This document shows, piece after piece, positions 3,290 through 18,701 of a stretch of 64,000 nt of DNA. The stretch comes from Pseudomonas sp. PDM18 (lineage in GTDB: Bacteria; Pseudomonadota; Gammaproteobacteria; Pseudomonadales; Pseudomonadaceae), in assembly GCF_014852585.1 (NCBI RefSeq), contig NZ_JACVBX010000001.1, positions 930,001 through 994,000 of the forward strand, written 5' to 3'. The notes under the pieces are model-generated. The model ran no database searches. It had not been told where the DNA came from and was given only the letters and a program-made list of their open reading frames with translations. Position 1 is the stretch's first letter; every line of letters begins with the position of its first letter. Made by a program: the position numbers and the translations under genes.

Positions 3290-4954
3290 CTACACCGTCG
3301 CGCGCTGGGCCGGCTCTACGGCCGGACGCTGTTCGGCGACCTGGCGCGCGTCTTCGAGGATCAGGTCGGCGCCCTTCTCCGCCACCATCATCACCGCGGC
3401 GTTGGTGTTGCCGGAGGTGACATTGGGGAAGATCGACGCATCGACCACGCGCAGCCCCTTGAGACCATGCACGCGCAGGCGGTTGTCCACCACTGAGGTC
3501 TGCGCGTCACTACCCATGGCGCAGCTGCCGCACAGGTGGTAGATCGAGCCGCAGTTCTCACGGAAGTACTGCAGCATCTGCTCGTCGGACTGAGTAGCGG
3601 GGCCCGGCAGGACTTCTTCCACGGTGATCTTCTTCAGCGCGGGGGCGTTCATGATCTTGCGGATCAGGTGGCTGCCCTGGATAGCCTCGTCGATATCCTT
3701 CTGCGTGCTCAGGTAGTTCGGGTCGATCAGTGCGGCGTCGGCCGGGTTCTTCGAGGCGATGCGGATCTCGCCGCGGCTGGTCGGACGGCAGGGGTTGAAG
3801 CAGAGCAGGAAGCCCGAATACGGCTCGGGTTTCAGGCTGGCCTTGTTGCTCTTGGGAATCTGGTAGGACAGCGGGTTGAAGTACAGCTGCAGGTTCGGGT
3901 GCTCCAGCTGATCGTCGCTGCGGAAGAAGCCGCCGCTCTGGTTCACGCTCATCGACAGCGGGCCCTTGCGGGTCAGCAGGTACTCCAGGCCAAGTTTCGC
4001 CTGGCCGAACAGCGAGCCGAAGTCATCGTTCAGGGTGCGGATATTGGCCTTGTAGTAGTAGCTGACGCACAGGTGGTCCTGCAGGTTCTTGCCCACGGCG
4101 GGCAGTTGGTGCACCTGGGGAATCTGGTGCTGGTCGAGCAGTTCGCGGTCGGCAACCCCGGACAGTTGCAGCAGCTTGGGCGAATCCACCGCACCGGCGG
4201 CGAGGATGACTTCGCGCTCGGCGCGGAACTCACGCTGCACGCCGCTCTGCTTCACGCTCACACCGATGGCGCGCTTGTTCTCGTCGAACAGCACGCGCTC
4301 CACCAGCGCGTTGCGCTCGATGGTCAGGTTTACGCGGTTCTGCGCCGGATGCAGGTAGGCGAAGCTGCTGGAGCAGCGCTGGCCGTTCTTCGTATTGACG
4401 TCATACAGGCCGGCGCCTTCGAAGTCCTTGCCGTTGAAGTCGTCGCTCAGGGGATAGCCCAGCTCCTGGCAGCCTTCGAGGAAGCGGTCGCAGATCGGAT
4501 GGGTATGGCCCTTCATGGGCGTGATCCGGATAGGACCGTCAGCGCCGTGGTACTCAGTGTTGCCCAGCGGGTGCGATTCCAGCTTGCGGAAGTACGGCAG
4601 CACGTCCTGGAACGACCAGCCGTCGTTGCCGTTGGCGGCCCAGTCATCGAAGTCGTGGGCCTGGCCACGCACGTAGATCATCGCGTTGATCGATCCCGAA
4701 CCACCCTGCACCTTGCCGCGCGGCGCATAGAGTTCGCGATTGGCGAGCTGCTTCTGCGGCTGGCTGTAGTACATCCAGTTGAAGGTCGGGTTGTAGTAGA
4801 GCTTGGCGAAGCCCACCGGGATCTTGAACCAGTGCGAGCTGTCCTTACCGCCGGCTTCCAGCAGCAGGACGCTGTGTTCGCCCGATTCGCTCAGGCGGGC
4901 GGCGAGGATGCAACCGGCTGAACCGGCGCCGACGATGATGTAGTCGTATTTCAT
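3290..4954 (-). CDS. GMC-family FAD-dependent alcohol oxidoreductase
   Basis: Oxidises a primary alcohol to an aldehyde with FAD; choline dehydrogenase and alkanol dehydrogenases are relatives. The 554-residue product starts with the Rossmann dinucleotide motif YDYIIVGAGSAG (about 4-15). The GMC signature GKVQGGSGSINAM lies near 80-92, and a second signature (GAVDSPKLLQLSG) near 254-266. The C-terminal active site has His in IYHLCGSCAMG and Asn in SGNTNAAV. It is the last gene of the ALDH-MFS-dehydratase-GMC operon, 64 bases after the dehydratase. No strong Shine-Dalgarno sequence precedes the ATG at 4954. The substrate is unknown and is probably the alcohol imported by the operon's permease. 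Confidence 0.88.
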   Translation of the reverse strand: MKYDYIIVGAGSAGCILAARLSESGEHSVLLLEAGGKDSSHWFKIPVGFAKLYYNPTFNWMYYSQPQKQLANRELYAPRGKVQGGSGSINAMIYVRGQAHDFDDWAANGNDGWSFQDVLPYFRKLESHPLGNTEYHGADGPIRITPMKGHTHPICDRFLEGCQELGYPLSDDFNGKDFEGAGLYDVNTKNGQRCSSSFAYLHPAQNRVNLTIERNALVERVLFDENKRAIGVSVKQSGVQREFRAEREVILAAGAVDSPKLLQLSGVADRELLDQHQIPQVHQLPAVGKNLQDHLCVSYYYKANIRTLNDDFGSLFGQAKLGLEYLLTRKGPLSMSVNQSGGFFRSDDQLEHPNLQLYFNPLSYQIPKSNKASLKPEPYSGFLLCFNPCRPTSRGEIRIASKNPADAALIDPNYLSTQKDIDEAIQGSHLIRKIMNAPALKKITVEEVLPGPATQSDEQMLQYFRENCGSIYHLCGSCAMGSDAQTSVVDNRLRVHGLKGLRVVDASIFPNVTSGNTNAAVMMVAEKGADLILEDARQVAEQRPAVEPAQRATV

Positions 4955-5018: not shown

Positions 5019-6236
5019 TCAGCCTTTGGCCGGTGCGTTGTCTTTCACGTCGACGGGGTCCGGGCCCATCTGCAGGTGCAGGCGCTCGCCGGTGTAGGGG
5101 CTGTGGGCGCGCACCACGTCCATGTTCAGCTCGACGCCAAGGCCGGGCTCGCTGGACGGGATGATGTAACCGTCTTCCCACTGCAGCGGCTTCTTCAGCA
5201 CCTGCGCGTGGAAGCCGTCCCAGGTGCCGATGCTTTCCTGGATCAGGAAGTTCGGCGTGCAGGCCGCCAGTTGGAAGCTCGCCGCCGCGCCGATGGGGCC
5301 GTTGTAGAGGTGCGGGGCAATCTGCGCGTAGAAGGCTTCGGCCATGGAGGCGATCTTCTTGCCTTCGAGCAGGCCGCCGCAGCGACCGACGTTCATCTGC
5401 AGGATCGACGCGCCGCCGGCCTGCAGTAACTTGAAGAATTCGTACTTGGTGGTCAGGCGCTCGCCGGTGGCAATCGGGATGCTGGTCTTGGCGGCAACCT
5501 GGCCCATGGCTTCTTCCTGGCCCGGCGGGATCGGCTCCTCGAACCACAGCGGGTCGTACTTCTCCAGGCGCCTGGCCAGGCGGATGGCCGAGGACGGCAC
5601 CATCTGCCCGTGGGTGCCGAACAGCAGGTCGCATTTACTACCCACCGCTTCGCGGATCTTGCGGCAGAAGGTCTCGCAGCGATCCAGCACTTCCAGCGAT
5701 ACCTGGTGGCCGGAGAACGCCGTGTAGGGGCCGGCCGGGTCGAACTTCAGCGCGGTGAAGCCGAGCTTCATATTCTCAATGGCGCACTCGGCGGCCAGTT
5801 CCGGGTCGGAGTAGTCGTACTCGCCCTGGGCGTTCTTCGGGTACAGGTAGGTGTAGGAGCGCAGGCGCTCGTGGACCTTGCCGCCGAGCAACTCGTAGAC
5901 CGGCTTGTTCGCCGCCTTGCCGATGATGTCCCAGCAGGCCATTTCCAGGCCGCTGACGATGCCCATCATGGTCAGGTCGGGGCGCTGGGTGAAACCGCTC
6001 GAATAGGCGCGACGGAAGAAGCGCTCGATATGGTGCGGGTCCTGGTTCTCCAGGTAGCGGCCGAACACGTCCTCGATGGCCGGGACCATGACCTTGGGAT
6101 GGAAGGTGGCGGCATAGATCTCGCCGACGCCTTCGATGCCGCAATCGGTCTTCAGCTTGACGAACAGCCAGTACATACCACCGACGTGGGGCGGCGGGAC
6201 GGCGACCACATGGGTTTCGAGGGAGACGATCTTCAT
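5019..6236 (-). CDS. Mandelate racemase/muconate lactonizing enzyme family protein (probable sugar-acid dehydratase)
   Basis: A 405-residue enolase-superfamily protein. The N-terminal capping domain (1-about 125) has the flexible loop VVAVPPPHVGG. In the barrel, the metal-binding acids probably include Asp in CDLLFGTHGQM, Glu in WFEEPIPP and Glu in ATGERLTTKYEF, and a catalytic His is probable in IAPHLYNGPIG. This arrangement resembles acid-sugar dehydratases of the galactonate/mannonate type more than cycloisomerases (inference). It overlaps the upstream MFS gene by the ATGA tetranucleotide (6233-6236), showing translational coupling. Its product would be a 2-keto-3-deoxy acid. No aldolase or kinase for such a product is in the window, so the pathway is incomplete here. 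Confidence 0.85.
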   Translation of the reverse strand: MKIVSLETHVVAVPPPHVGGMYWLFVKLKTDCGIEGVGEIYAATFHPKVMVPAIEDVFGRYLENQDPHHIERFFRRAYSSGFTQRPDLTMMGIVSGLEMACWDIIGKAANKPVYELLGGKVHERLRSYTYLYPKNAQGEYDYSDPELAAECAIENMKLGFTALKFDPAGPYTAFSGHQVSLEVLDRCETFCRKIREAVGSKCDLLFGTHGQMVPSSAIRLARRLEKYDPLWFEEPIPPGQEEAMGQVAAKTSIPIATGERLTTKYEFFKLLQAGGASILQMNVGRCGGLLEGKKIASMAEAFYAQIAPHLYNGPIGAAASFQLAACTPNFLIQESIGTWDGFHAQVLKKPLQWEDGYIIPSSEPGLGVELNMDVVRAHSPYTGERLHLQMGPDPVDVKDNAPAKG

Positions 6237-7531
6237 GCTTGTTTCGCTCTCTTCTGGATGCGCTTGTTCAGGATCAGGGTGGCGACCACGCCCAGCAGGC
6301 CCATCACCACGACGTAGGAGAAATAGATCTGGTAGCCGACGAAGCCGGGGAAGCGGTCAGTGATCCAGCCGTTGAGCAGCGGCAGGTAGGCATCGGGCGA
6401 GTAGCCGATGACCGAGATGATGCCGATGGCCAGGCCGGTGACGCGCAGCGGGATGCGGCAGTCGTCCAGCACGGCCCAGTACAGGCCGCGGATGGCGTAG
6501 GTCATCAGGCCGATGAAGATCACCAGGAAGATCAGCACGCCGAGCACATGCAGGCTCGGCAGCACGATCAGGCCGATCATGCCCAGCGCGGAGAGCAACA
6601 TCGCCCAGGTCAGCACGCCGGCCTTGGAGAAGCGGTCACCCAGCCAGCCACCGCCGATGCCGCCCACCGGGCGCATCCAGAGCTTGATGGTGGTGATGAT
6701 GCCAGCAGCGGTGGCGGAGAGGCCGAAACCGCCTTCCTGCAGGTAGGCCGAGAAGCTGTAGGTGGCCCAGAAGAAGTGGTAGCCGCAGAAGACGATGGCG
6801 GTGACCAGCCAGAGTTCGGGGATGCGCAGCAGGGTGCGGAAGTCTTCCAGCAGGTTGCCCTTTTCGGCGCGGGACTGCTTGCCGTTCTTCTGCGGATCGC
6901 GCACCAGCATCAGCGCGGCGCCCAGCACGATGCAGAAGATCGCGTACATATGGATGACCAGTTGCAGGCCCTGGGCGTTCTTCTCGCCACGGGTCTCGGT
7001 GACGTAGGCGAACAGCGCGATGGCAATAGTCGCCAGCAGCGCCTCGACCAGCCCGCGGCCACCGTCGAGCACGCCGAAGAAGCGCCCCTGCTCATCTTCG
7101 CCGGCGAGCATCTTCACCCGCTTGATCAGCGCGGCCCAGAATGTCAGGCCGGTGGTGACGCCGAAACCGCAGAAGATCACCAGCAGCGTGTCGAAGCCCG
7201 GCAGCATGGCGTACCACATACCGAGCAGGCCGGTGCCGATCAGCGAGAAGCTGATCAGGAAGCGCGGTGACAGGCGATCCGCCAGCCAGCCGCTGGGCAG
7301 GTAGCTGAGCAGGAAGGCGGTGCCGAGGATCGAATAGAGGTAGCCCAGTTCGCTGTTGTTGATCGCCAGCGCCTCGAGCATGGTGCTCTGATACACCTGG
7401 CGCAGATACAGCATCGGGTAGATCGCCCCCGCCGCGAGCACGAGCAGTGCGAGCTGGATGTAACGGGTGAGGTTGGCGTTAGCGGGCACGGCCATGGGCA
7501 TGGCTTCTGCACTTATTGTTTTTTTCATCAT
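6233..7531 (-). CDS. MFS transporter of the GMC/dehydratase operon
   Basis: About 432 residues with roughly 12 hydrophobic helices. The first is IQLALLVLAAGAIYPMLYL, and the cytoplasmic 2-3 loop carries the MFS-type SGWLADRLSPRF. The central loop near residue 210 is charged (RDPQKNGKQSRAEKGN). An organic acid or sugar-acid uptake role fits its position between the ALDH and the dehydratase genes. The ATG-ATG pair at 7531/7528 is preferred to the in-frame 7561 because the latter begins a low-complexity leader (MPATEPAARC). It overlaps the downstream gene by 4 bases. Confidence 0.83.
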   Translation of the reverse strand: MMKKTISAEAMPMAVPANANLTRYIQLALLVLAAGAIYPMLYLRQVYQSTMLEALAINNSELGYLYSILGTAFLLSYLPSGWLADRLSPRFLISFSLIGTGLLGMWYAMLPGFDTLLVIFCGFGVTTGLTFWAALIKRVKMLAGEDEQGRFFGVLDGGRGLVEALLATIAIALFAYVTETRGEKNAQGLQLVIHMYAIFCIVLGAALMLVRDPQKNGKQSRAEKGNLLEDFRTLLRIPELWLVTAIVFCGYHFFWATYSFSAYLQEGGFGLSATAAGIITTIKLWMRPVGGIGGGWLGDRFSKAGVLTWAMLLSALGMIGLIVLPSLHVLGVLIFLVIFIGLMTYAIRGLYWAVLDDCRIPLRVTGLAIGIISVIGYSPDAYLPLLNGWITDRFPGFVGYQIYFSYVVVMGLLGVVATLILNKRIQKRAKQA

Positions 7532-7634
7532 GCATCTCGCAGCCGGCTCGGTCGCCGGCAACTGGTCGGAACAGCAGTGGGAGTGACGGAGCCCAGGCAG
7601 TGGGCCCCGTGGGTTGGATCAGCAGATCAGCGAA

Positions 7635-9056
7635 TCAGAACTTCAGGACCACGAGGCGCGTCTGGGTGAACTCCAGCATCCCGTGCTTGCCGTCGTCGCC
7701 GCCCAGGCCCGAGCGCTTCCAGCCGGCGTGGAAGCCCTGGTAGGGGTCGGCGGGCGTGCGGTTGATGTAGATCTCGCCAGCCTCGATGTGGTTGGCGACC
7801 TTCATGGCGTTGCGGTAGTTCTCGGTGAACAGCACCGAGGACAGGCCGAACTGGTGGTCGTTGGCCATGGTCAGCGCGTCGTCGAGGGTCTCGTAGGACA
7901 GCACCGGCAGCACCGGGCCGAAGATTTCCTCCTGAACGATCTCCATGTCCTGGCGGCAGCCGCTAAGCAGGGTCGCCGGATAGAAGTGGCCGGCGCCCTC
8001 GGGCAGCACGCCGCCGCACTCCAGCACGGCACCTTCGGCCAGCGCGCGCTGGACCTTGGCGTGCACGTCCTGGCGGGCGCGGGCGTGTTGCAGCGGGCCC
8101 ATCAGGCTGGCGTCTCTGGCACGGTTGCCAATGCGCACGGCGGCCATCTTCTCGCGCAGCAGGGCGAGGAAACGCTCATGCACGCTGGCCTGCACGTAGA
8201 CGCGCTCAATGGCGGTGCACAGCTGGCCGCAGTGGGTGGTCTTGGAGGCGACGATGGCGACGGCAGCTTTATCCAGGTCGGCATCCGCCTCGATGATCGC
8301 CGGGGTCTTCCCGCCCAGTTCCAGGGATGGCTTGGCGATGTTGGCCTTGCAGTAGTCGAGCACGATACGGCCGGCGCCGACGCTGCCGGTGAGGGTGATC
8401 AGGCCGATCTGCGGCTGCTGGCAGAGCACGGCGGCGACGTCGTGATTCATGGTCAGCACGTTCAGCACGCCGGCGGGCAGGCCGGCTTCCTCGGCGCAAC
8501 GGGCGATCTCGAAGGCGGAAGTCGGGGTGTTGTTGCTCGGGCGCACCACCACGGTGTTGCCGGTGATCAGCGCCGGCGCGACCTTGCGCAGGAAGGTGTA
8601 CACCGGGTAGTTGAACGGGATCAGCGCCACGACCACGCCGATCGGTTCGCGCTGCAGCAGGATGGTTTCGTCGGCGGAATCGCTGGGTATGACTTCGCCT
8701 TCGATGCGACGCGCCCATTCGGCGTGGTAGCGGGTGATCTGGCCGGCGTAGAAAGCTTCGCTGCTGGCGTCGGCCAGGCTCTTGCCGGACTCAGCGGCCA
8801 GGGCGGCGCCGATACGATCGGCGTTACGCTCCAGCGCTTCGGCGAAGCGGCGCAGGTGCTCGCCACGCTCGATGGCCGGCAGGCGGGCCCAACCGCGCTG
8901 GGCGCGAGCGGCGGCTTCCACGGCGTTGCGCACATCGGCTTCGGTCGCAGCCGGCACCTGGGCGACCTGCTGCTCGGTCGCCGGGTCGTACACGGCGATG
9001 TGGGCGGAGGAAGCTTCGGCAAAGCGGCCGTCGATGAAGTTTCGATCTGTACGCAT
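7635..9056 (-). CDS. NAD(P)-dependent aldehyde dehydrogenase, AldA-like
   Basis: Oxidises an aldehyde to its carboxylate. The product is about 473 residues. The catalytic cysteine lies in THCGQLCTAIERVYV, the general base Glu in LELGGKTPAII, and the cofactor loop in LTGSVGAGRIV. The C-terminal signature GFHAGWKRSGLGGDDGKHG closely resembles E. coli AldA (lactaldehyde dehydrogenase), as remembered. The start at 9056 is chosen because AGGA lies 7 bases upstream. It is the first gene of the operon, so the GMC enzyme and this ALDH together would carry an alcohol to an acid that the dehydratase could then use. The 262 bases upstream, to the LysR gene at 9319, hold no other gene I can support. Confidence 0.88.
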   Translation of the reverse strand: MRTDRNFIDGRFAEASSAHIAVYDPATEQQVAQVPAATEADVRNAVEAAARAQRGWARLPAIERGEHLRRFAEALERNADRIGAALAAESGKSLADASSEAFYAGQITRYHAEWARRIEGEVIPSDSADETILLQREPIGVVVALIPFNYPVYTFLRKVAPALITGNTVVVRPSNNTPTSAFEIARCAEEAGLPAGVLNVLTMNHDVAAVLCQQPQIGLITLTGSVGAGRIVLDYCKANIAKPSLELGGKTPAIIEADADLDKAAVAIVASKTTHCGQLCTAIERVYVQASVHERFLALLREKMAAVRIGNRARDASLMGPLQHARARQDVHAKVQRALAEGAVLECGGVLPEGAGHFYPATLLSGCRQDMEIVQEEIFGPVLPVLSYETLDDALTMANDHQFGLSSVLFTENYRNAMKVANHIEAGEIYINRTPADPYQGFHAGWKRSGLGGDDGKHGMLEFTQTRLVVLKF

Positions 9057-9318
9057 GGTCATGTCCTGTCGTTCTAGCAAGGCTTCGGGCCGGGGGCGGC
9101 CCCACGCAACGACAAGGTGCAGACTGGCTCATGCAAGCGACGGGCAAGTCGGCGCGGCGCAGGCAGGAAGGTGACTCTTGTCGTTATCGGTTGGCCGAAG
9201 TTTCGACAGCCGCCCAGGTCACGACAAGCGATTAATAGACCGCCATAACATGCAAAAAACGCAGGTTAGTGCGCGTAGGAAAGTCACCACTTCCTACAGG
9301 AAACGACGATGGATTCGT

Positions 9319-10257
9319 TCAGGAAAGACTGATGATGGAGCCCGATCCCGCCAGGTTGCGCTCGGTCATCCACACCTCCTGCTGCAACCACTCATGGAAG
9401 CGTTGAACGTGGGACGGTAACTCCTGCTCCGGCCGGCTGACCCACCAGTAGGACTGGTGCCCCTGCACCTCGACGTCGAGCATCTGCACCAACTGCCCCG
9501 CCGCCAGTTCACGGGCGACCATCTGCCGGTCGGCGATAGTGATGCCCAGCCCGTCGATGGCCGCGCGGATGGCCATGTCCAGGAGGTCGAACTCGTAGCC
9601 GCCCTGCAGGTCGACGCCCTGGATCTTCGCGGCATCCAGCCAGTGGCGCCAGGTCAGGAAGCGCTGGTCGTCGCGCGCCAGCACATGCAGCAAAGTCATG
9701 CTGCGCAGGTCGATGTCCTGCTCCTCGCGCTGCGCCAGCAGGTTGGGCGCGCACACCGCGATGTGCCGCTCGTGCATCAGCAGCGAGCTGTCCAGGCCGT
9801 CCCATTCGCCGTTGCCGAAACGGATCGCGCAATCCAGCGTGCTGCTCTGCGCAAGGCTGTCCTGCAGGTTGGTGGTCAGGCTCACTTCAAGGTCGGGGTG
9901 CGCTTCGCGCAGGCGCGACAGACGCGGCAACAGCCAGCGCAGGGCGAAGGTCGGCGGCGCGTTGACCCGCAGGCGGTTGAGGTGGTGGCGCTGCTGGATA
10001 CCGCGCACCGTCAGCTCGATGCGGTCGAATGAGAGTTGCAGCGCGCGCAGCAGTACACGCCCGGCCTCGGTCAGCTCCAGGTGATGATGCCGGCGCACCA
10101 GCAGGCTCTCGCCCAGTTGTTCCTCCAACTGGCGCACCTGGCGGCTGACCGCGCTCTGGGTCACGTTGAGCAGCTCGGCCGCACGGGTAAAGCTCCCGGT
10201 GCTGCCGGCGACTTCGAAGGCCTTCAGCGCATTGAGCGCCGGAATCTTGCGTTTCAC
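9319..10257 (-). CDS. LysR-family transcriptional regulator (GcvA-like), GTG start
   Basis: A 312-residue LysR protein. The N-terminal winged helix-turn-helix (IPALNALKAFEVAGSTGSF to VTQSAVSRQVRQLEEQLG) is followed by a linker helix and a two-lobed effector-binding domain. The LNALKAFE opening and the SAVSRQVRQLEE recognition helix are typical of the GcvA/AmpR subgroup. I place the start at GTG 10257 (VKRKIPALNAL); the longer open frame to 10431 would overlap the porin gene and carries no LysR sequence. It sits between the porin and the ALDH operon on the same strand and probably controls one of them. Confidence 0.85.
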   Translation of the reverse strand: MKRKIPALNALKAFEVAGSTGSFTRAAELLNVTQSAVSRQVRQLEEQLGESLLVRRHHHLELTEAGRVLLRALQLSFDRIELTVRGIQQRHHLNRLRVNAPPTFALRWLLPRLSRLREAHPDLEVSLTTNLQDSLAQSSTLDCAIRFGNGEWDGLDSSLLMHERHIAVCAPNLLAQREEQDIDLRSMTLLHVLARDDQRFLTWRHWLDAAKIQGVDLQGGYEFDLLDMAIRAAIDGLGITIADRQMVARELAAGQLVQMLDVEVQGHQSYWWVSRPEQELPSHVQRFHEWLQQEVWMTERNLAGSGSIISLS

Positions 10258-10310
10258 CCACCCTTCCCTGCCCGCCGGCCTTCCCCGTGCGGGCTTCGTC
10301 TGCGCGCTGA

Positions 10311-11477
10311 TCAGAAGTAATAGCCGATGTTGGCGTACAGCTGATTCTCCCAGTGGTCGGTGCCACCTTCGGCCAGACTCCGGGTGTAACTGCTGCCACC
10401 GATATACGGGTCGTTGCGGCCGTTTAGCCATTCCACGGCGATGTACACCGACTTCACCGAGAAGGAGGTGCCGAGGATGAAACGCTCGGAGGTCTTGAAG
10501 TCATCGGCGGATTTATCGAAGGCGCTGTAATTGCCATAGATCTTCACGCCGCTGACCCAACCATCAAGGAAATTTCCGGGAATGCTGTAGCTCAGGTCGC
10601 CGACGTATAGGTTACCGCGGCTGGCAACATTGAAAGTACCGTCGTACCCACCGAATGTGACTACCTCGTCGCTACCCGGATTCCTAGGAGACATCTGCTG
10701 GCGGGCAGCTTGCAACTGCACGCCCCACGGGCCGTTCTGCCCCATGTAGTGGACGGCGTAGGCATTGCGCCGGCCGTCGTTGCCGGTGTCGCGGTTTTCC
10801 AGGCGCGAGGTCAGCGCGGAAGCGCCCACCTCGGCTTTCCAGTCGCCCAGCTGCAACGAGCGCGCCACGCGGCCGACCAGGATCTGTCGTTCCTTGTTGC
10901 GGTTGCCGTCGGCGACGTAGCTGTCGGCATCGGTGACCACGGTGGAATAGCTGGCGCCGTTGCTGGTGCCGTTGCCGGCCCACGCTGGCCGCGCATAGGC
11001 GCCGAGCTGAAAGTTCCAGCCGCCCTGCTGCTGAATGTACTTCACACCGACATCGTTGACGTCTTCCAGGCCAACAACGTTGCCCAGGGTTTCGTAGAAG
11101 GTGCTGCCGAAGTAGGGCTGCAGGCCGAAGGGAATGCTGTTGAGGCCGACCTGCACCTGTTTGTCCGGATCGAACTTGTAGCCGATCCAGGCGTACTCGG
11201 CGAAGTTCACGTCGCCAAAGTGCTGGGTGTACTGGTAGGGATAGTCCTTGCCGTACCACCGGTAACGCGCCGCGCCGATCCAGGTGTCGGAGGTGTAGGT
11301 GACGCGCAGCATCGCGGTATCGATGCCGAACTTCTCGATGTCGCGGTCCGGGTCATGATCCCAACGCGCACGCACGGCGCCGCCGATGTCCAGGTTGTCG
11401 GTCACCGGTACGGCGATGGCGGTGGAGCTGAGGGCGAAGAGTGCGGGAAGCAGGAACGGCAGGTGGAGTCTGGCCAC
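10311..11477 (-). CDS. Outer-membrane porin-like protein
   Basis: A 388-residue secreted beta-barrel protein. A signal peptide (LPFLLPALFALSSTAIA, about 1-23) is followed by alternating amphipathic strands with many Trp, Tyr and Asn residues. It ends in the aromatic C-terminal strand NQLYANIGYYF, the terminal Phe being the usual BAM recognition signal. It is probably a substrate-specific channel for the compounds handled by the flanking operons, as catabolic Pseudomonas loci often carry their own porin. The exact family is not recognised. It is divergent from the LysR gene at 11699, with 221 bases between that probably hold the promoters of both. Confidence 0.72.
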   Translation of the reverse strand: MARLHLPFLLPALFALSSTAIAVPVTDNLDIGGAVRARWDHDPDRDIEKFGIDTAMLRVTYTSDTWIGAARYRWYGKDYPYQYTQHFGDVNFAEYAWIGYKFDPDKQVQVGLNSIPFGLQPYFGSTFYETLGNVVGLEDVNDVGVKYIQQQGGWNFQLGAYARPAWAGNGTSNGASYSTVVTDADSYVADGNRNKERQILVGRVARSLQLGDWKAEVGASALTSRLENRDTGNDGRRNAYAVHYMGQNGPWGVQLQAARQQMSPRNPGSDEVVTFGGYDGTFNVASRGNLYVGDLSYSIPGNFLDGWVSGVKIYGNYSAFDKSADDFKTSERFILGTSFSVKSVYIAVEWLNGRNDPYIGGSSYTRSLAEGGTDHWENQLYANIGYYF

Positions 11478-11698
11478 GTTGAAGGTGCCTCGGCTGGTTT
11501 CTTGTCGTTATGGGAGTCGCCCGCGCCCGGTGCTCCCCGGTGCGTGAGCGCGGCCGAAACTAGCCCTTGGCCGAGCCGCCACACAAACGACTAAATCGCA
11601 ACCCAAACCCGAGAAAAACGCATACTCCAAAAGCATCGCCATCGCTAGAATCAGCGAAAAAAGCCCGCGCCACGAGCGTACTTCCGGATGGCCCCGCC

Positions 11699-12574
11699 AT
11701 GCGTAATCTGCCGCCCTTGACCATGCTCCGCGTTTTCGAAGAAGTAGCCCGCCACCGCAGTTTCAATCGTGCGGCCGATGCACTGAACGTCACCCAGGGA
11801 GCCGTCAGCCGGCAGATCAAGCAGTTGGAGGAATACCTTGGAATCAGCCTTTTCCTACGCACACCCCGTGGGCTGACGTTGACCGAAGCCGGCAGTGCCC
11901 TCGCTCCGCACCTGGGCGAAGCCTTCGACCAGATCGAACGTGCGCTGCAGGCCGTGCGCGTGCCCAACCTGCGTCAACGCCTGCGCATCCTCGCTCCACC
12001 GACCTGGGGTACCCGCTGGCTGTCGCCGCGTCTGCGCAGCTTCCTCAAGCGCTATCCGGACATCAACCTGAGTGTCACCAACCACCTGGACGGCGAGAAT
12101 GCCGGCGAGCTGGACTGCCGCATCCGCTTCGGTCTGGAGCAGGCCGTCCACTGCCACAGCGAGCTGCTGGTGATGGAACGTCACATCGCCGTGGCGAGCC
12201 CGGAGCTGTTCGACGGAGAGCAACCACCGGATCTCAATGCCCACCCGCTGCTGCACATCCTGCATGAGGGCAAGCGCCTGCGGGTTTGGGAAAACTGGCT
12301 GGAAGCGGTAGGCCGCAGCGACGTCGATGCCGCCAGCGGCATCGAGTTCAGCACCCTGGACCAGGTCATCCACACGACCCTGGCCGGGGGCGGACTGGCG
12401 GTGATCGACCGGCAGATGATCGAGCGGGAGCTTCTCAGCGGAAGCCTGCTGCCGATCACCCCCGTCGAAGTGATCGGTCCCTACGGCTACTGGCTGGATA
12501 TCGCGACTGACCGGCAGGGCCTGTCGAAGGTACAGCGCTTCCAGGACTGGTTGAGTCTGGTCAGCAATCCCTGA
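11699..12574 (+). CDS. LysR-family transcriptional regulator (GcvA-like)
   Basis: A 291-residue LysR protein beginning MRNLPPLTMLRVFEEVARHR, with the recognition helix VTQGAVSRQIKQLEEYLG and the RTPRGLTLTEAG wing. The ATG at 11699 matches the family N-terminus; the longer frame from 11567 adds a basic, low-quality leader. It is divergent from the porin gene and convergent with the MFS gene that ends at 12607. It is a second GcvA-type regulator in the same island, about 1.3 kb from the first. The two could control the left and right operons separately. Confidence 0.85.
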   Translation: MRNLPPLTMLRVFEEVARHRSFNRAADALNVTQGAVSRQIKQLEEYLGISLFLRTPRGLTLTEAGSALAPHLGEAFDQIERALQAVRVPNLRQRLRILAPPTWGTRWLSPRLRSFLKRYPDINLSVTNHLDGENAGELDCRIRFGLEQAVHCHSELLVMERHIAVASPELFDGEQPPDLNAHPLLHILHEGKRLRVWENWLEAVGRSDVDAASGIEFSTLDQVIHTTLAGGGLAVIDRQMIERELLSGSLLPITPVEVIGPYGYWLDIATDRQGLSKVQRFQDWLSLVSNP

Positions 12575-12606
12575 GCGTCAGCAACGCCCAGGGAGCGCTG
12601 GCTGCA

Positions 12607-13968
12607 TCAAGCCACGCTGGCGACTTTGCCCGGCGATGCCGGCGCCGCAGCGTCCTCCTCCGCGCGACCGCAATCGGTGAGGGTCAGGTACTTGGTTTCC
12701 GGCGCCCAGGCTATGGAGATGATTGCGCCCAGCAGCAGGATGCCGGCGAGGATCGCCATGGTCGGGTTGAGCCCGATGCCTGCCACGCTGACCGGCAGCA
12801 GGAAGGTGCTCAGTGCCGAGCCCAAGCGGCTGGCCGCCGTCGCCAGGCCGATTCCGCCGGCGCGTACTTCAGTGGGGAAGCTTTCCGCCGGGTAGACGCC
12901 GACCAGGTTGCTCACCGCCGACAGCACCAGGGTGAACAGGCCGAAGCACGCGACCATCAGCCAGGCCATGCTGCCCGGCAGCAGCACCAGCAGGAACAGC
13001 GAAGCGGCGAGGATCAGGAAGGAGTTGATGAGGAAGCCGCGGCGGCTGAACTTGATGGTGCACCAGATACCCAGCAGCGCGCCGACGATCAGTAGTGCGT
13101 TGAGCATCATCTCGGTGCCGAAGCCTTCGGACAGTCCCATCTTCTGCAGGATCGACGGCAGGAAGGTGTAGATGGCGAAGTACGGCATGACGATGCAGAT
13201 GAAGAACAGGCAGTTGAACGCCGTGCGCTTGCGGTATTGCGCGCTGAACAGCGCCTTGTAGCCGCTGTGCTTGCGATTGATGACTTCCTCGTCGATCTCC
13301 ACGTTGGCGCCCAGGTGCTTCCTGACGATGGCGCGGGCTTCTTCGATGCGGCCCTTGTAGACCAGCCAGCGCGGCGACTCGGGGGTGCCGATACGGGCGA
13401 TCAGGATCATCGCCGCCGGAATGGCCGAGGACGCCAGCATCCAGCGCCAGGCGTCATCGCCCAGGGACAGCATGGCCGTGCCGACGAAGGTGGCGGCGAC
13501 GTAGCCGAAGGTCCAGATCACGCTGAACGATCCCAGCAGCACACCGCGATGCTTGCGTGGCGAGAACTCGGCGAGCATGGCGTGGCCGACGCTGAAGTCG
13601 CCGCCCAGGCCGATGCCGATCAGCACCCGGCAGAGGAACAGCTGCATCGCGGTTTCCACATAGAACTGCATCACCGATGCAGCCGTGATCAGCACGAAAC
13701 TGATGAGGAATATCTTCTGCCGGCCGAGGTGGTCGGAAATCCAGCCGAAGAACAGGCTGCCGAGGAACAGGCCGAACAGCGCCGAGCTGCCGATCAGGCC
13801 CTGCCAGAACGGCGTCAGCGCCATCTGCGGATTGATCAGGGTAAAGGCGATGCCGATCAGGCCGAGGATGTAGCCATCGGTGAAGTGGGCGCCGAAGGTG
13901 AGGCCGGCGATCTTGATGTGGAACCTGCCGATGGGCAGGTCATCGATTTTGACTGGTTGACCCGACAT
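12607..13968 (-). CDS. MFS transporter, sugar/aromatic acid:H+ symporter type
   Basis: A 453-residue permease with 12 predicted helices. The helix 2-3 loop has FFGWISDHLGRQKIF, which follows the MFS signature GxxxDRxGRR, and PESPRWLVYKGR is the PESPRW box of the sugar porter and AAHS/SHS families. YPAESFPTEVRAGG matches the second-half conserved loop. The start at 13968 (MSGQPVKIDDL) is preferred to 14016. It is the last gene of the fae-AKR-ALDH-MFS operon and the likely substrate importer, 96 bases after the ALDH gene. Confidence 0.85.
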   Translation of the reverse strand: MSGQPVKIDDLPIGRFHIKIAGLTFGAHFTDGYILGLIGIAFTLINPQMALTPFWQGLIGSSALFGLFLGSLFFGWISDHLGRQKIFLISFVLITAASVMQFYVETAMQLFLCRVLIGIGLGGDFSVGHAMLAEFSPRKHRGVLLGSFSVIWTFGYVAATFVGTAMLSLGDDAWRWMLASSAIPAAMILIARIGTPESPRWLVYKGRIEEARAIVRKHLGANVEIDEEVINRKHSGYKALFSAQYRKRTAFNCLFFICIVMPYFAIYTFLPSILQKMGLSEGFGTEMMLNALLIVGALLGIWCTIKFSRRGFLINSFLILAASLFLLVLLPGSMAWLMVACFGLFTLVLSAVSNLVGVYPAESFPTEVRAGGIGLATAASRLGSALSTFLLPVSVAGIGLNPTMAILAGILLLGAIISIAWAPETKYLTLTDCGRAEEDAAAPASPGKVASVA

Positions 13969-14064
13969 GATCGTCTCCGAGTTTTTGTTATAGGAAACAC
14001 CGCGAGGTTGAACCACCGCGCCCTTGGCGGCGCGGCGGATGAGGCAGAACGCCTTTGGGGCGCG

Positions 14065-15504
14065 TCAGGCAGACAGGCCGCCCATGAGCAGGTACTTGAT
14101 CTCCACGTAGTCCTCGATGCCGTATTTCGAGCCTTCGCGGCCCAGGCCTGACTCCTTGATGCCGCCAAAGGGCGCCACCTCGGTGGAGATGATTCCTTCG
14201 TTGATGCCGACCATGCCGGCCTCCAGCCCCTCGGCCATGCGCCAGACGCGGCCGATGTCGCGGCTGTAGAAATAGGCGGACAGGCCGTAGGGCGTGTCGT
14301 TCGCCAGATTCAGGACTTCAGCCTCGTCGCGGAAGCGGAAGCAGGCGGCGACAGGGCCGAAGGTTTCCTCACTCGCGATGAGCATTTGCGGATTCGCTTC
14401 GGCCAGCACGGTGGGCTCGTAGAAGGTGCCACCCATTGCATGGCGGCGACCGCCACAGAGTACCCGTGCGCCCTTCTCCACCGCGTCACCGACGTGTTGC
14501 TCGACCTTGGCCAGCGCCGCTTCGTTGATCAGTGGGCCCTGCTCGGTCTCGCCTTCCAGCGCATTGCCCACCCGCATGGCGCGCACGGCTTCGGTGAGGC
14601 GCGAAACGAAAGCCTCGTACACCCCCTCCTGGATGTAGAAGCGATTCACGCACACGCAGGTCTGTCCGGTGTTGCGGAACTTCGACGCCATGGCGCCGCG
14701 CACGGCGGCCTCGATATCGGCGTCATCGAAGACGATGAAGGGGGCGTTGCCGCCCAGCTCCAGCGAGACCTTCTTCAGCGTCTCCGCCGCCTGGCGCATC
14801 AGCAGCTTGCCGGTGCGGGTCGAGCCGGTGAACGACAGTTTGCGCACCGCCCCCGATGCCTGCAGCGCGCCGCCGATGGCCGGGGCGTTGCCAGAAACGA
14901 TGTTGAACACGCCCGGCGGGATGCCCGCTTCTTCCGCCAGCACCGCGAGGGCGAAGGCCGACAGCGGGGTTTCTTCCGAAGGCTTGAGAATCATCGTGCA
15001 GCCGGCGGCCAACGCCGGACCGACCTTGCGGGTGACCATCGCCAGAGGGAAGTTCCACGGAGTGATCGCCGCGACCACGCCGATCGCCTGCTTGATGACC
15101 ACGATGCGCGCATCACCCTTGTGCGAAGGGATCACATCGCCGTAGACACGTTTGGCTTCCTCGGCGAACCACTCGAGGAAGCTCGCCGCATAGGCTACTT
15201 CGCCCTTGGCCTCGGCCAGCGGCTTGCCCTGCTCGGTACTGAGCAGGCGCGCCAGATCGTCCTGGCGCTGCAGCATCAGCTCGCCCCAGCGGCGGATGCG
15301 CGCGCTGCGTTCCTTGGCAGTCAACGCGCGCCAGGCCGGCAATGCGCGTTCGGCGGCGGCGATGGCGGCGTTGGTTTCCTCGGCGCCACCACGGGCGACT
15401 TCGACGATCAGCGCACCGGTGGCCGGGTTGCGCACCGGATAGGTCGCGCCACCGGTCACCCATTGGCCGTCGATATAGTGGCCGGTCTTCAGCAGCTCGC
15501 TCAT
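14065..15504 (-). CDS. Succinate-semialdehyde dehydrogenase-type aldehyde dehydrogenase (GabD-like)
   Basis: A 479-residue NAD(P)-dependent aldehyde dehydrogenase. The catalytic cysteine is in NTGQTCVCVNRFYIQ, the general base Glu in LELGGNAPFIVFDDAD, the cofactor loop is SFTGSTRTGKLLMR, and EVAPFGGIKESGLGREGS lies near the C-terminus. These are characteristic of the GabD subfamily, in which the second Cys of the CxC pair can form a regulatory disulfide. Overall resemblance to GabD is strong, but the genomic setting (Fae-like, AKR, MFS) suggests a different aldehyde. It overlaps the AKR gene by ATGA (15501-15504), so the two are translationally coupled. Confidence 0.88.
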   Translation of the reverse strand: MSELLKTGHYIDGQWVTGGATYPVRNPATGALIVEVARGGAEETNAAIAAAERALPAWRALTAKERSARIRRWGELMLQRQDDLARLLSTEQGKPLAEAKGEVAYAASFLEWFAEEAKRVYGDVIPSHKGDARIVVIKQAIGVVAAITPWNFPLAMVTRKVGPALAAGCTMILKPSEETPLSAFALAVLAEEAGIPPGVFNIVSGNAPAIGGALQASGAVRKLSFTGSTRTGKLLMRQAAETLKKVSLELGGNAPFIVFDDADIEAAVRGAMASKFRNTGQTCVCVNRFYIQEGVYEAFVSRLTEAVRAMRVGNALEGETEQGPLINEAALAKVEQHVGDAVEKGARVLCGGRRHAMGGTFYEPTVLAEANPQMLIASEETFGPVAACFRFRDEAEVLNLANDTPYGLSAYFYSRDIGRVWRMAEGLEAGMVGINEGIISTEVAPFGGIKESGLGREGSKYGIEDYVEIKYLLMGGLSA

Positions 15505-16535
15505 GCCACCGCCTCCGTCAGCGCGAAGGCTTCGCGCATGGGCCGGGCAGCACGCAGGATGCGCTTGCCGGCGGTGTAGTCGTTGATCACGTCGCAGGGC
15601 GTGTAGTTGCGCTCCAGCTCGTGGATTTCCTCATCATCCAGACGGGTTTCCAGTGCAGCCAGCGCGCTGTCGAACTGCGCGGTGGTGTCGGCGCCGACCA
15701 GCATGCAGTCCACGCCCGAATGCTGCAGGACCCAAGCCTGGGCGATCTGCGCGTTGGACACGCCGCGGCGCTGGGCCACGCGCTGCACGGAGCGGGCGAT
15801 CTCGAAGGAGGCTTCGTCGGCGTACATCTGCTGCGTGAAGAAGTCGGTCTGGTTGCGCGTGGAGTTCGCATCGCCGGTTAGCAGGCCGCGCGCCAGCGGG
15901 CTGAACACCGAGACGCCGAGGCCCTGGTCGCGGCAGAACGGGATCATCTCGCGCTCTTCCTCGCGGTAGGCGCAGTTGAGCTGCAGCTGCATGTTGATCG
16001 GCTTGACCCAGCCGTTGCGCTCGCAGGCCATGAGGATCTTCGCCAGCTGGCCGGTGAGCATGGTGGACACGCCGATGTAGCGGGCCTTACCGGCGCGGAC
16101 GATGTCGTTCAGCGCGCCCATCACCTCTTCCACCGGGGTGTTCACGTCGTAGAAGTGCAGCATGTAGATGTCGACGTAATCCATGCCCATGCGCTTCAGG
16201 GAGGCATCGATGCCATCCATGATGTGCTTGCGCGAATGGCCGCTGGCGTTGATGCCGGGACGGGTGCCGTAGCCGACCTTGGTGGTGATCACCACGTCCT
16301 CGCGACGCACCAGGCGCTTGAGGATGCGGCAGACCACTTCTTCGCCGACGCCGGCGGAATAGAAGTCGGCCAGATCGATGAAGTTCACGCCGGCATCCAG
16401 CGCATGCTTCACGATCGGCTCGCTCCTGGCCTCATCGAAAATCCACGGTTTCCAGTCCGGGGTGCCCATGTTCATGGTGCCCAGGCACAGCTTGGACACC
16501 TGCAGGCCGGAGTTGCCGAGACGGATGTATTGCAT
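15501..16535 (-). CDS. Aldo/keto reductase
   Basis: A 344-residue NADPH-dependent oxidoreductase of the (beta/alpha)8 AKR superfamily. The catalytic tetrad is visible: Asp and Tyr in DLADFYSAG, Lys in VVITTKVG and His in IYMLHFYD. The family opening YIRLGNSGLQVSKLCLGT is intact. It would reduce a carbonyl, or oxidise an alcohol in reverse, and may pair with the adjacent aldehyde dehydrogenase. It starts 10 bases after the Fae-like gene stops and overlaps the ALDH gene by 4 bases, so it sits in the middle of a tight four-gene operon. Confidence 0.88.
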   Translation of the reverse strand: MQYIRLGNSGLQVSKLCLGTMNMGTPDWKPWIFDEARSEPIVKHALDAGVNFIDLADFYSAGVGEEVVCRILKRLVRREDVVITTKVGYGTRPGINASGHSRKHIMDGIDASLKRMGMDYVDIYMLHFYDVNTPVEEVMGALNDIVRAGKARYIGVSTMLTGQLAKILMACERNGWVKPINMQLQLNCAYREEEREMIPFCRDQGLGVSVFSPLARGLLTGDANSTRNQTDFFTQQMYADEASFEIARSVQRVAQRRGVSNAQIAQAWVLQHSGVDCMLVGADTTAQFDSALAALETRLDDEEIHELERNYTPCDVINDYTAGKRILRAARPMREAFALTEAVA

Positions 16536-16545
16536 GCTGCTGACC

Positions 16546-17058
16546 TCAGGCCTTGGGGGTGTAGAAGGGGTTGGCGATGGCGTTGACCACGTCGGCCAGC
16601 TGCGCGCGCTCGGGCTTGCAGCTCAGCGCCGCGCGGATCGCGGTGCGGCAGGCGTTGTAGTTGTTCAGGTAGACGGCATCGAGGTCGTCGCAACCGGGGT
16701 TGACCCAGTTGGCGGTGACGATGGCCCACTCGTCCTCGGCTTCCGGCGGCAGCGTGCCGTCTAGCAGCGCCTCGGTGACGGCCTTGGCGATGCCCGCCTG
16801 GGACGCGCCCCAGGTGGCGTTGGCGTGCATATCGCCGTTGATCTCGGCCTTGTTCACGTAAAGGGTCATTGGCTTGACCGGAATGTTCGGCTGCGCGATC
16901 ACCATGAATGGGCAGTGCCCCTGACTGGGCGAGGAAAGGCTGTTGGAGAAGGCTTGGCCGGCCGGTCCGCTGCGCGGGCCGAGCAGGATGTTGATGTGCG
17001 CGGCATTGACGCCGGGGCCTTCGAAACCTTCACCGATGTACAGGTCGAGCTTTTTCAT
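16546..17058 (-). CDS. Formaldehyde-activating enzyme (Fae) family protein
   Basis: A 170-residue protein matching the Fae fold along its length. It begins MKKLDLYIGEGFEG, then VNAAHINILLGPRSGPA with His21 at the position of the catalytic His of true Fae. PNIPVKPMTLYVNKAEI corresponds to the PNxPxKPxTLxxNK block. Genuine Fae condenses formaldehyde with tetrahydromethanopterin in methylotrophs. Pseudomonas is not known to make that cofactor, so the role here is open: Fae2/Fae3-type paralogs of unknown function exist. The start at 17058 is used because GAGGT precedes it; 17070 is an alternative. It is the first gene of an operon with AKR, ALDH and MFS genes, which points to small-aldehyde handling. 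Confidence 0.82.
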   Translation of the reverse strand: MKKLDLYIGEGFEGPGVNAAHINILLGPRSGPAGQAFSNSLSSPSQGHCPFMVIAQPNIPVKPMTLYVNKAEINGDMHANATWGASQAGIAKAVTEALLDGTLPPEAEDEWAIVTANWVNPGCDDLDAVYLNNYNACRTAIRAALSCKPERAQLADVVNAIANPFYTPKA

Positions 17059-17387
17059 GGGGTACCTCATGGAACCGTGGGGTGTAAGAAAGCCCGGGCC
17101 TGCTTGCGCGGCCCGTGGCAAAACCGGCGCAGTGGCGCCGGGGGAAAGCGGAAGGGGGATCAGGAATCGACGGGCGAGTCGGACGGGTGCGCGAAGGCAC
17201 CGGACAGGCCGGAAAACGGAGGACGGATCGAGGGCGGGGAAAACAGGCAGGTGATCATGTCGCGTCGCTCTTTGTTGTTGTCGATGAGCTGGTGCGACGA
17301 TTTTTAGCACCGGGCCCGAGCGGCCCGGTAACCACAAAAACTCAAGGAGTTATGACTTGCCCTCATAACTGCAGAGCGCGATGAATC
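17059..17387 (-). promoter_or_regulatory. Upstream region of the Fae-like operon, with inverted repeat AGTTATGA-N7-TCATAACT
   Basis: A stretch of 329 bases without a supportable gene, between the Fae-like gene and the lipoprotein gene on the same strand. It must hold the operon promoter. The clearest element is a perfect 8-bp inverted repeat at 17348-17370 with a 7-base spacer, about 300 bases upstream of the start. The symmetry and AT-rich arms suit a dimeric regulator, but the distance is long. It could also act as a transcript-end structure for the lipoprotein gene that stops at 17388. No T-run follows it. Confidence 0.35.
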
Positions 17388-17966
17388 TCAGAGCCCGATG
17401 CGCTCGAAGAAGCCCGGCCCTTCCACTTCCTTGCCGCTGGCGGCAATGCTCACCGGCTCCTGGACCTGCCGGGTGGCGGGGATTTCCCGCGAGCCCAGCT
17501 CCTTGCCCACCAGTTGCAGCGGGCCGGCGCCCTGGCCGGCGGTGTGTTCGTACTTGGGCGGCGTGTGGGTCTCGTCGTAGCGCAGGTAGTAGACCTCGCC
17601 AGCGCGGGCTTCCAGGGTGAAGCCGGCGATCAGAGTGAAGTCCAGGCTGCCGCCGGCGAAGTAGGTCCAGAAGCTGCCCAGCAACGGGCGGCGCATCTGC
17701 AGCGGATAACTGCCGGGGGCGAAGCTCAGGGCGAAGTAGCCGTTGCTCGGCAGGCTGCCGATCAGTTCGTTGTTGATGAACAGGCCCGGCGCCTCCAGCT
17801 CTTCGTCGGACCACTGGTTCTGCGGCCGGTAGATGTACACCGTGGCCTGCTGCGCATCTGCGGGCAACGCGCCGAAAGGCGGCCCGTCCACCGCGCCGAA
17901 GAACGCGCCGGGCGAGCTGCAACCAGCGAGCATCAGGAGAAAGGCGCACAGGGCCACTCGGAGCAT
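17388..17966 (-). CDS. Outer-membrane lipoprotein, DUF2846-like
   Basis: A 192-residue lipoprotein precursor. The signal sequence MLRVALCAFLLMLAGC ends in the lipobox LAGC, with Cys16 as the lipidation site. The mature part contains QATVYIYRPQNQWSD, FINNELIGSLPSNGYFAL and a strand-rich region ending GEVYYLRYDET. This matches DUF2846-type envelope proteins (VYxYRP, xxGyf). Residue +2 after the Cys is Ser, which favours outer-membrane sorting. The function is unknown. It is divergent from the toxin-antitoxin pair at 18154. Confidence 0.75.
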   Translation of the reverse strand: MLRVALCAFLLMLAGCSSPGAFFGAVDGPPFGALPADAQQATVYIYRPQNQWSDEELEAPGLFINNELIGSLPSNGYFALSFAPGSYPLQMRRPLLGSFWTYFAGGSLDFTLIAGFTLEARAGEVYYLRYDETHTPPKYEHTAGQGAGPLQLVGKELGSREIPATRQVQEPVSIAASGKEVEGPGFFERIGL

Positions 17967-18153
17967 GGAAAGTCCCTCTTATGGTTATCCCCGGAGCATA
18001 ACCAGCGCTTCGCGCCTTGCCACCCGTCGAAAGTCCGGGTCTACGGCATCACAGTTACCGGCGCCCTCGCCCCCGCCTACCCCTTCCTGTTTGACACTGT
18101 TCCCAGGCAAGCGAAGTATTATCCGGTATTACCTTTTAGTAAGAGGTGTGAAC

Positions 18154-18423
18154 ATGGCCACTTCGGTCAAACTCGACGAGGAAATGCTCGCCCGAATCCG
18201 CGAACTGGCCGAGCTGCGCCAGCGCTCGCCGCACTGGATCATTCGCGAAGCCATCGGCCAGTACGTGGTGCGCGAAGAGCAGCGCGAAAAGCTGAAGAAG
18301 GAAACCGAGCAGGCGTGGGAGGAGTTCCAGGCAACCGGTCAGCACGTCACCGCGGAGGCCGTGGAGAACTGGCTGAACAGCTGGGGCGCTGAGGACGAAC
18401 AAGACACTCCGAAATGCGAGTGA
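18154..18423 (+). CDS. ParD/CopG-type antitoxin (ribbon-helix-helix)
   Basis: An 89-residue protein opening MATSVKLDEEMLARIRELAELRQRSP, a ribbon-helix-helix N-terminus for operator binding, followed by a charged helical C-terminal segment (REEQREKLKKETEQAWEEF) expected to wrap the toxin. AAGAGG lies about 7 bases before the ATG. The stop overlaps the toxin start by 10 bases, the usual type II arrangement. The RHH dimer probably autorepresses from the AT-rich promoter just upstream (18100-18150, TATTATCCGGTATTACC). Confidence 0.85.
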   Translation: MATSVKLDEEMLARIRELAELRQRSPHWIIREAIGQYVVREEQREKLKKETEQAWEEFQATGQHVTAEAVENWLNSWGAEDEQDTPKCE

Positions 18424-18701
18424 TCTACGCACCTGCAGCACTGCGCGACCTCGAACGTCTGCGGCGTTTCCTGCGGGAAACCAACCCTGCCGCCGCAAGC
18501 CGCCCCGGCCGGGTCATCATCGAAGCCACCCAGGCCCTCGCCGCGTATCCGCAGATAGGCCGGCTGATCGATGATCTGCCGGTGACCTTTCGCGAATGGC
18601 CGATCGATTTCGGCGACAGCGGTTACCTCGCCCGCTACCGCATCGACGGTGAAACCCTGGTGATCCTCGCCATCCGCCACCAGCGCGAAGCCGGCTACTG
18701 A
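18414..18701 (+). CDS. RelE/ParE-family toxin
   Basis: A 95-residue basic protein of the RelE/ParE fold: MRVIYAPAALRDLERLRRFL, then PQIGRLIDDLP, and the C-terminal strand SGYLARYRIDGETLVILAIRHQREAGY. The RYRIDGETLVILAIRHQRE block is typical of ParE-type toxins, which target DNA gyrase, whereas RelE relatives cleave mRNA. The target cannot be decided here. It begins inside the antitoxin gene (10-base overlap) and ends 7 bases before the convergent GNAT gene's stop. Confidence 0.85.
   Translation: MRVIYAPAALRDLERLRRFLRETNPAAASRPGRVIIEATQALAAYPQIGRLIDDLPVTFREWPIDFGDSGYLARYRIDGETLVILAIRHQREAGY

Follow-up and report, generated by a model that had tools for sequence, protein, structure and literature searches.

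What does a Fae-family protein do in a Pseudomonas operon that lies outside any visible tetrahydromethanopterin (H4MPT) pathway? Fae condenses formaldehyde with an amine, releasing water, and is commonly used to mark C1 metabolism linked to H4MPT. The stretch of DNA analysed here (64,000 nt in full, hereafter the window) raised this question through a first-pass annotation, which had assigned the DNA to Pseudomonas and had placed a Fae-family protein at 16546..17058 (minus strand). Both assignments stand. Among the best 80 of 134 relatives, the closest named fae loci are those of Pseudomonas sp. 21 (99%) and P. nitroreducens (98%). The 170-residue product scores 163 bits for PF08714 (Fae) in Pfam, whose cut-off is 27 (E 6e-48, positions 1-158 of 159), and with 131.4 bits it also passes the cut-off of 118.05 bits of the NCBIfam model TIGR03126, under which it is named formaldehyde-activating enzyme. 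The start codon is the ATG at 17058, with GAGG 6 nt upstream, and this Met is invariant across 22 aligned rows. It is the single Fae copy in its 6.4 Mb genome.

The nearest solved structure is 1y5y, also named formaldehyde-activating enzyme, and sequence scores leave little doubt that the protein has the Fae fold. Fae1 of M. extorquens (tetrahydromethanopterin hydro-lyase, PDB 1y5y/1y60) belongs to the same family over its whole length, with 30% identity to the window protein over 164 residues. The two share the His that we take to be the Fae catalytic residue (His21 in the window protein, alignment column 22), Lys71, Gln88, the PNxPxKPxT loop and many Gly and Pro positions. As the first-pass annotation had recognized, this His is retained (AHIN), the PNxPxKPxTL block is present as PNIPVKPMTL, and Asn23 replaces the Asp that follows in AHID.

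We compared 190 distinct rows, comprising 71 Fae1 rows, 112 with His and Asn (HN; the 80 closest loci supplied 57) and seven others that we take to be Fae2/Fae3-like paralogues of methylotrophs, all seven from genomes that also carry Fae1 and MCH. Rows were sorted by residues 22 and 24, so that these two columns are circular for the contrast between HN and Fae1; the presence of the His throughout HN, the window protein included, and of Asn at 24 in the window protein and 112/112 HN rows, is to be read in that light. At the positions that we take to form the Fae active site, the window protein reads H-N-M-K-E-Q and Fae1 H-D-L-K-T-Q, and the paralogues, in which the His is absent from its column, read M-E-F-K-T-Q, EELKTQ or similar. 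His22, Lys71 and Gln88 are common to HN and Fae1. Asp24 and Thr73 of Fae1 are presumably pterin-site residues, and Thr73 is kept in only one of the 112 HN rows, the window having Glu. A further 35 columns, with one end column omitted, are more than 90% fixed in both groups with differing residues; the newly fixed HN residues include His49, His79, Trp84, Asn118, Trp119 and Asn121 (M. extorquens positions). These fixed but different columns make the HN protein look rebuilt under selection rather than decayed. The dN/dS values of 0.04-0.21 between the window gene and seven of the 80 loci, taken together with the fixed new residues, led us to reject a decayed relic, even though six Burkholderiaceae genomes carry broken or incomplete HN copies.

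In a tree of 55 of the 190 rows, thirty Fae1 rows lie behind one branch with 100/100 support and the seven paralogue rows behind another, and the window protein is on neither. Sixteen proteobacterial HN rows group together with 98/86 support; the Streptomyces HN row falls beside Fae1 and the divergent row L174 lies deeper, both on long branches. Since all HN rows form one group in only 4% of bootstrap trees, HN is better described as a grade than as a demonstrated clade. Alignment with Fae1 and the Fae2/Fae3-like rows sets the window protein apart, and judged by its residues HN is a distinct Fae type, in which the His is kept, Asp is replaced by Asn and the presumed pterin-site Thr is lost.

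An H4MPT pathway elsewhere in the genome would, as the first-pass annotation had pointed out, make this an ordinary Fae. We searched genome-wide for the markers MCH (PF02289) and FTR (PF01913), for which the control methanogens matched; a profile for MtdA/MtdB-type proteins (PF09176) gave no match in the controls. Neither MCH nor FTR was found in the genome that holds the window, and the window is therefore without them as well. Each is absent from 13/13 fae-bearing genomes of the genus, this one included. Of 398 genomes drawn evenly from the phylum, 23 had a Fae match, 22 of them over the cut-off. MCH was searched in 20 of the 23, two others (G000 and G007) having been tested in the genus set and the last (G090) being a sub-cut-off match with stops. 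MCH was present in 17/17 genomes with a Fae1-like match and absent from the three that have HN only (G187, G343 and G345). In a further 59 genomes, with types assigned by hand, it was present in 34/34 with a Fae1-like match and in 0/25 with HN only, the latter including the divergent G1103 and also G1340, whose gene is broken across frames. Over all 92 fae-bearing genomes, MCH accompanies Fae1 in 51/51 and HN alone in 0/41.

The absence of the two markers searched, MCH and FTR, together with the position of the protein on another branch of the tree, led us to reject an ordinary Fae. A variant of that explanation, in which an ordinary Fae uses H4MPT from an unrecognised synthesis route or from outside uptake, could appeal to the TIGR03126 score and to HN genomes that do hold the marker: HN stands alongside both Fae1 and MCH in G270, in G977 and in a further 13 Burkholderiaceae whose HN gene is whole. 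It is highly improbable, given the missing markers in genomes of the genus where controls were positive, the 41 HN-only genomes without MCH and the replacement of the two presumed pterin-contact residues. The co-occurrence of both types in those 15 genomes indicates that HN and Fae1 are inherited independently. We conclude that the system in the window very probably operates without H4MPT. Since HN proteins occur without MCH in 41 sampled genomes, the name formaldehyde-activating enzyme can mislead annotation, and the HN type points to a new reaction within a conserved operon.

The partners listed in the first-pass annotation (an aldo-keto reductase, a GabD-like aldehyde dehydrogenase and an MFS permease) are all present on the minus strand. 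The aldo-keto reductase (AKR, 15501..16535; PF00248, 228 bits) starts 10 nt past the fae stop. What we take to be its catalytic tetrad of Asp, Tyr, Lys and His is intact in the window and identical in 159/159 rows, duplicates counted. It is overlapped, by ATGA, by a GabD-type succinate-semialdehyde dehydrogenase (SSADH, 14065..15504; TIGR01780, 703.7 bits against a cut-off of 646.35), in which Cys, Glu and two Arg are found in 105/105 rows and Ser in 104/104, again with duplicates counted; these invariant residues presumably include the carboxylate-binding ones. The nearest solved chain is GabD itself (3jz4), whose catalytic residues are kept. Unlike GabD, the operon enzyme is tied to fae and AKR and falls below the GabD equivalog cut-off of PRK11241 (749 versus 828 bits). 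An MFS transporter (Sugar_tr/MFS_1 by Pfam and NCBIfam; 12607..14016, minus strand, start codon uncertain) follows. Beyond it lie a LysR-type regulator, LysR1 (11567..12574, plus strand; PF00126/PF03466), whose true start, judged by eye, is probably further in, and a putative porin-like outer-membrane protein (10311..11477, minus strand). The latter label is a guess by eye, as the protein has no Pfam or NCBIfam match, and the label OprD was dropped for want of support.

A scan of one genome per species gave 134 relatives, the best 80 of which (79 labelled Pseudomonas and one Paucimonas MAG) were analysed. HN fae, AKR and SSADH occur together in 80/80 of these closest loci, with fae preceding both. 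Between the fae stop and the ATG that follows lie 10 nt in 78 loci and 9 nt in the other two, and AKR ends in ATGA in all 80. Homologues of the MFS transporter (70/80), LysR1 (68/80) and the porin-like protein (51/80) are less constant. In this genus, HN fae is the first gene of the operon. Upstream of it in the window is a gene for a DUF2846 protein (17388-17966, minus strand); as a homologue is found in only six of the 80 related loci, it is probably not part of the system.

The region upstream of fae contains a conserved leader element, GCTC..ACAACAACAA..GAGC (17267..17289, minus strand), 208 nt before the gene and including the motif AAnAAnAA. Many Pseudomonas loci show the same arrangement some 100-210 nt ahead of fae: GCTC..ACAACAA..GAGC and then an ATG. 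Of 80 upstream regions, one from the window and 79 from related loci, 72 contain AAnAAnAA, compared with 6% of single-base shuffles, and 68 have it with GAGC behind it, compared with 0.3% of shuffles; because the loci are related, the count of 72 reflects conservation and not 72 independent events. In Pseudomonas we take AAnAAnAA to be a target of carbon control by Crc/Hfq, which would fit an operon for use of a carbon source. An open frame of 32 codons (17160..17258, minus strand) starts 8 nt past the element. The leader ATG occurs in 62/80 upstream regions, with 32 codons in 38 and 27-32 codons in many relatives. A functional leader peptide was ruled out, since in-frame pN/pS (0.92 for 35 rows, 0.91 for five rows) was no lower than in shifted frames (0.68-1.25); in the absence of selection at the protein level, only the start element is conserved. 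An Rfam search over 9000-18500 gave no matches, and no inverted repeats were found in 16530-17400.

Outside the closest relatives, we fetched 27 loci of other lineages, picked from the hits rather than at random. AKR adjoins fae in 25 of them and SSADH in 23. The exceptions are the Streptomyces locus L163, L237 (neither gene), L238 (no SSADH) and L249 (contig end). In L163 a tartronate-semialdehyde-reductase-like protein replaces AKR, and an SSADH is annotated that falls under the identity limit used. Gene order also varies: MFS precedes fae in the G187 family (L122 and L233-L236), and AKR precedes it in Ensifer (L164) and in L238. The L163 locus, from Streptomyces clavuligerus (L163:5502-12778), contains an osmoprotectant-type ABC transporter, fae, the tartronate-semialdehyde-reductase-like gene and SSADH, and the surrounding plasmid region includes a hybrid NRPS/PKS gene as well. 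L237 carries a lone divergent HN-type Fae (L237:8980-9507) after urease-like genes and before an amidase-like gene, as named by eye, without AKR or SSADH, and this may be another possible use of the fold.

The first-pass suspicion that this is not an ordinary Fae is supported by the MCH counts, by the Asn in place of Asp throughout the type and by the conserved aldehyde-enzyme partners. The retained acid His, the many fixed residues, the frequent absence of H4MPT markers and the linkage to AKR and to a carboxy-aldehyde dehydrogenase together suggest that HN Fae carries out a reaction of the Fae type with a different substrate. We tentatively favour, at somewhat below an even chance, an H4MPT-independent member of the Fae family that performs aldehyde hydro-lyase chemistry in a catabolic operon. 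Uptake by the MFS or an ABC transporter would bring in a small polar compound, perhaps containing nitrogen, on which AKR would interconvert hydroxyl and carbonyl. The Fae His might then serve as general acid while a carbinolamine, hydrate or imine is formed or broken at the aldehyde carbon; this would be the hydro-lyase chemistry of Fae with a substrate other than H4MPT, and the step would either supply or receive the aldehyde of SSADH. Finally, SSADH would oxidise the carboxy-aldehyde so produced, which would be succinate semialdehyde or something close to it, and so feed central metabolism. That the operon is catabolic rather than purely for detoxification seems probable to us, although AKR and SSADH could equally serve the latter. 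Counting against the proposal as a whole are the passed TIGR03126 cut-off, transporters that vary between lineages, the exceptions L163, L237 and L238, the failure of HN to form a single clade and the genomes in which HN accompanies Fae1 and MCH. The substrate is guessed from the neighbouring genes, and betaine-, opine/peptide- and sugar-acid-like classes were considered. Since SSADH keeps the residues that we take to bind carboxylate, it probably acts on a carboxy-aldehyde and not on formaldehyde; that the Fae-type chemistry itself acts on a carboxy-aldehyde rather than on formaldehyde is a possibility we put forward with some reserve. In its most specific form, which is rather doubtful, the proposal is of a pterin-free Fae-fold enzyme that acts on a C4 carboxy-aldehyde, making or breaking its carbinolamine, imine or hydrate, in an undescribed catabolic pathway of Pseudomonas, Burkholderiaceae and a second gammaproteobacterial family, with a looser form in Ensifer and Streptomyces. 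If this were true, the H4MPT reaction of Fae would be one branch of an older family of aldehyde-amine enzymes.

A second gene set on the far side of the porin-like gene bears on the main rival to this proposal. On the minus strand it comprises the regulator LysR2 (9319..10260; LysR-type by Pfam, start approximate), a PRK10090-like aldehyde dehydrogenase, ALDH2 (7635..9080; 527 bits, cut-off 500), the transporter MFS2 (6233..7561), with a weak NCBIfam likeness to phosphoglycerate and galactonate transporters, an enolase-superfamily, galactonate-dehydratase-like protein (5019..6236; PRK14017, 253 bits, below the cut-off of 311; PDB 4e4u) and a GMC-family, choline-dehydrogenase-like oxidoreductase (3290..4954; PRK02106, 594 bits, just below the cut-off of 605). 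A class I fumarate-hydratase-like gene (680-2203, plus strand) lies beside the GMC gene. In the best 80 of 134 loci, ALDH2 is found in 22, LysR2 (at least 55% identity) in 23 and MFS2 in 20, the flanks, at most 10 kb long, not reaching far enough to reveal the GMC and enolase-family genes. In the 27 loci of other lineages, a LysR2 homologue (at least 55%) occurs in 10, at least one of LysR2, ALDH2, enolase-family and GMC genes in 11, and both the enolase-family and GMC genes are linked to fae in five (L238, L240, L241, L242 and L250).

According to the rival explanation, HN Fae captures formaldehyde on tetrahydrofolate or another common carrier, detoxifying formaldehyde that the pathway sets free, for example when the enolase-superfamily dehydratase yields a 4-hydroxy-2-oxobutanoate-like product that is then cleaved. 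Dehydratase-like, GMC and ALDH genes do adjoin fae in the window and in some other loci, the catalytic His, K71 and Q88 are kept, and PMC11748545 suggests a tetrahydrofolate role for Fae-like groups of unknown function. However, ALDH2 is present in only 22/80 loci within 10 kb flanks, so formaldehyde from the second set hardly explains the core operon; no folate enzyme is found among the core genes fae, AKR, SSADH and MFS, and the carboxylate-binding residues assigned to SSADH again speak for a carboxy-aldehyde. We therefore consider tetrahydrofolate capture possible but unlikely.

A second rival treats HN Fae as a sensor or buffer that binds formaldehyde or another aldehyde and is not an enzyme. 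Such sensing or regulatory roles have been proposed for Fae homologues (PMC3728764, PMC11748545). In our loci, however, a LysR gene is already close by in 68/80, fae is locked to AKR at a fixed spacing and the catalytic His is retained, which makes a sensor distinctly improbable.

For Fae groups beyond the H4MPT-linked ones of bacteria and archaea, PMC11748545 describes the function as unknown. The Fae2/Fae3-like paralogues resemble HN in being family members without a settled function according to that source and PMC5023235, but differ from it in lacking the His and in their separate branch; in the latter source, single fae2 and fae3 mutants of Methyloversatilis are described as growing without defect on C1 compounds. 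Genes of the kinds found in the window operon also appear in the genomic region RGP103 of P. aeruginosa CR1, whose table row lists a formaldehyde activating enzyme, aldehyde dehydrogenase, aldo/keto reductase and gluconate dehydratase, with P. citronellolis as origin (PMC6372532). That row labels the region as aldehyde detoxification and gluconate metabolism and contains no H4MPT test, type or mechanism. A study of the function of the HN fae operon was not found in the open-access literature, and the literature on Gfa was set aside because it concerns a different enzyme.

The transporters linked to the operon differ by lineage. An Opp-type ABC gene lies within 4 kb of the porin-like gene in 28/80 loci, none of them among the 22 with ALDH2, and Opp-type binding proteins are also found in Ensifer L164 and in L238. 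Betaine-type ABC systems occur in L240 and in Streptomyces L163. In B. pyrrocinia, a GMC gene (ABD05_RS19810) and proW (ABD05_RS19845) are recorded as raised by peanut root exudate in a transcriptome study (PMC10061817). The two are close in locus tag, and our guess is that they belong to the B. pyrrocinia version of the HN fae locus.

The occurrence of HN Fae is patchy. Within the genus, 13 of the 25 genomes have it; among the genomes listed from the family's other genera, 0/13 do. Of 369 genomes drawn evenly from the class, one contained it, namely that of the window itself, the other 49 matching genomes having at most 36% identity. Elsewhere it is present in 5/149 genomes of the G187 family and in two of 347 of the G352 order (G977 and G1103). 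Burkholderiaceae hold a whole HN gene in 35/200 genomes, and six more (G1340, G1288, G1376, G1368, G1347 and G1262) carry split or partial copies, which suggests that the pathway has been lost repeatedly.
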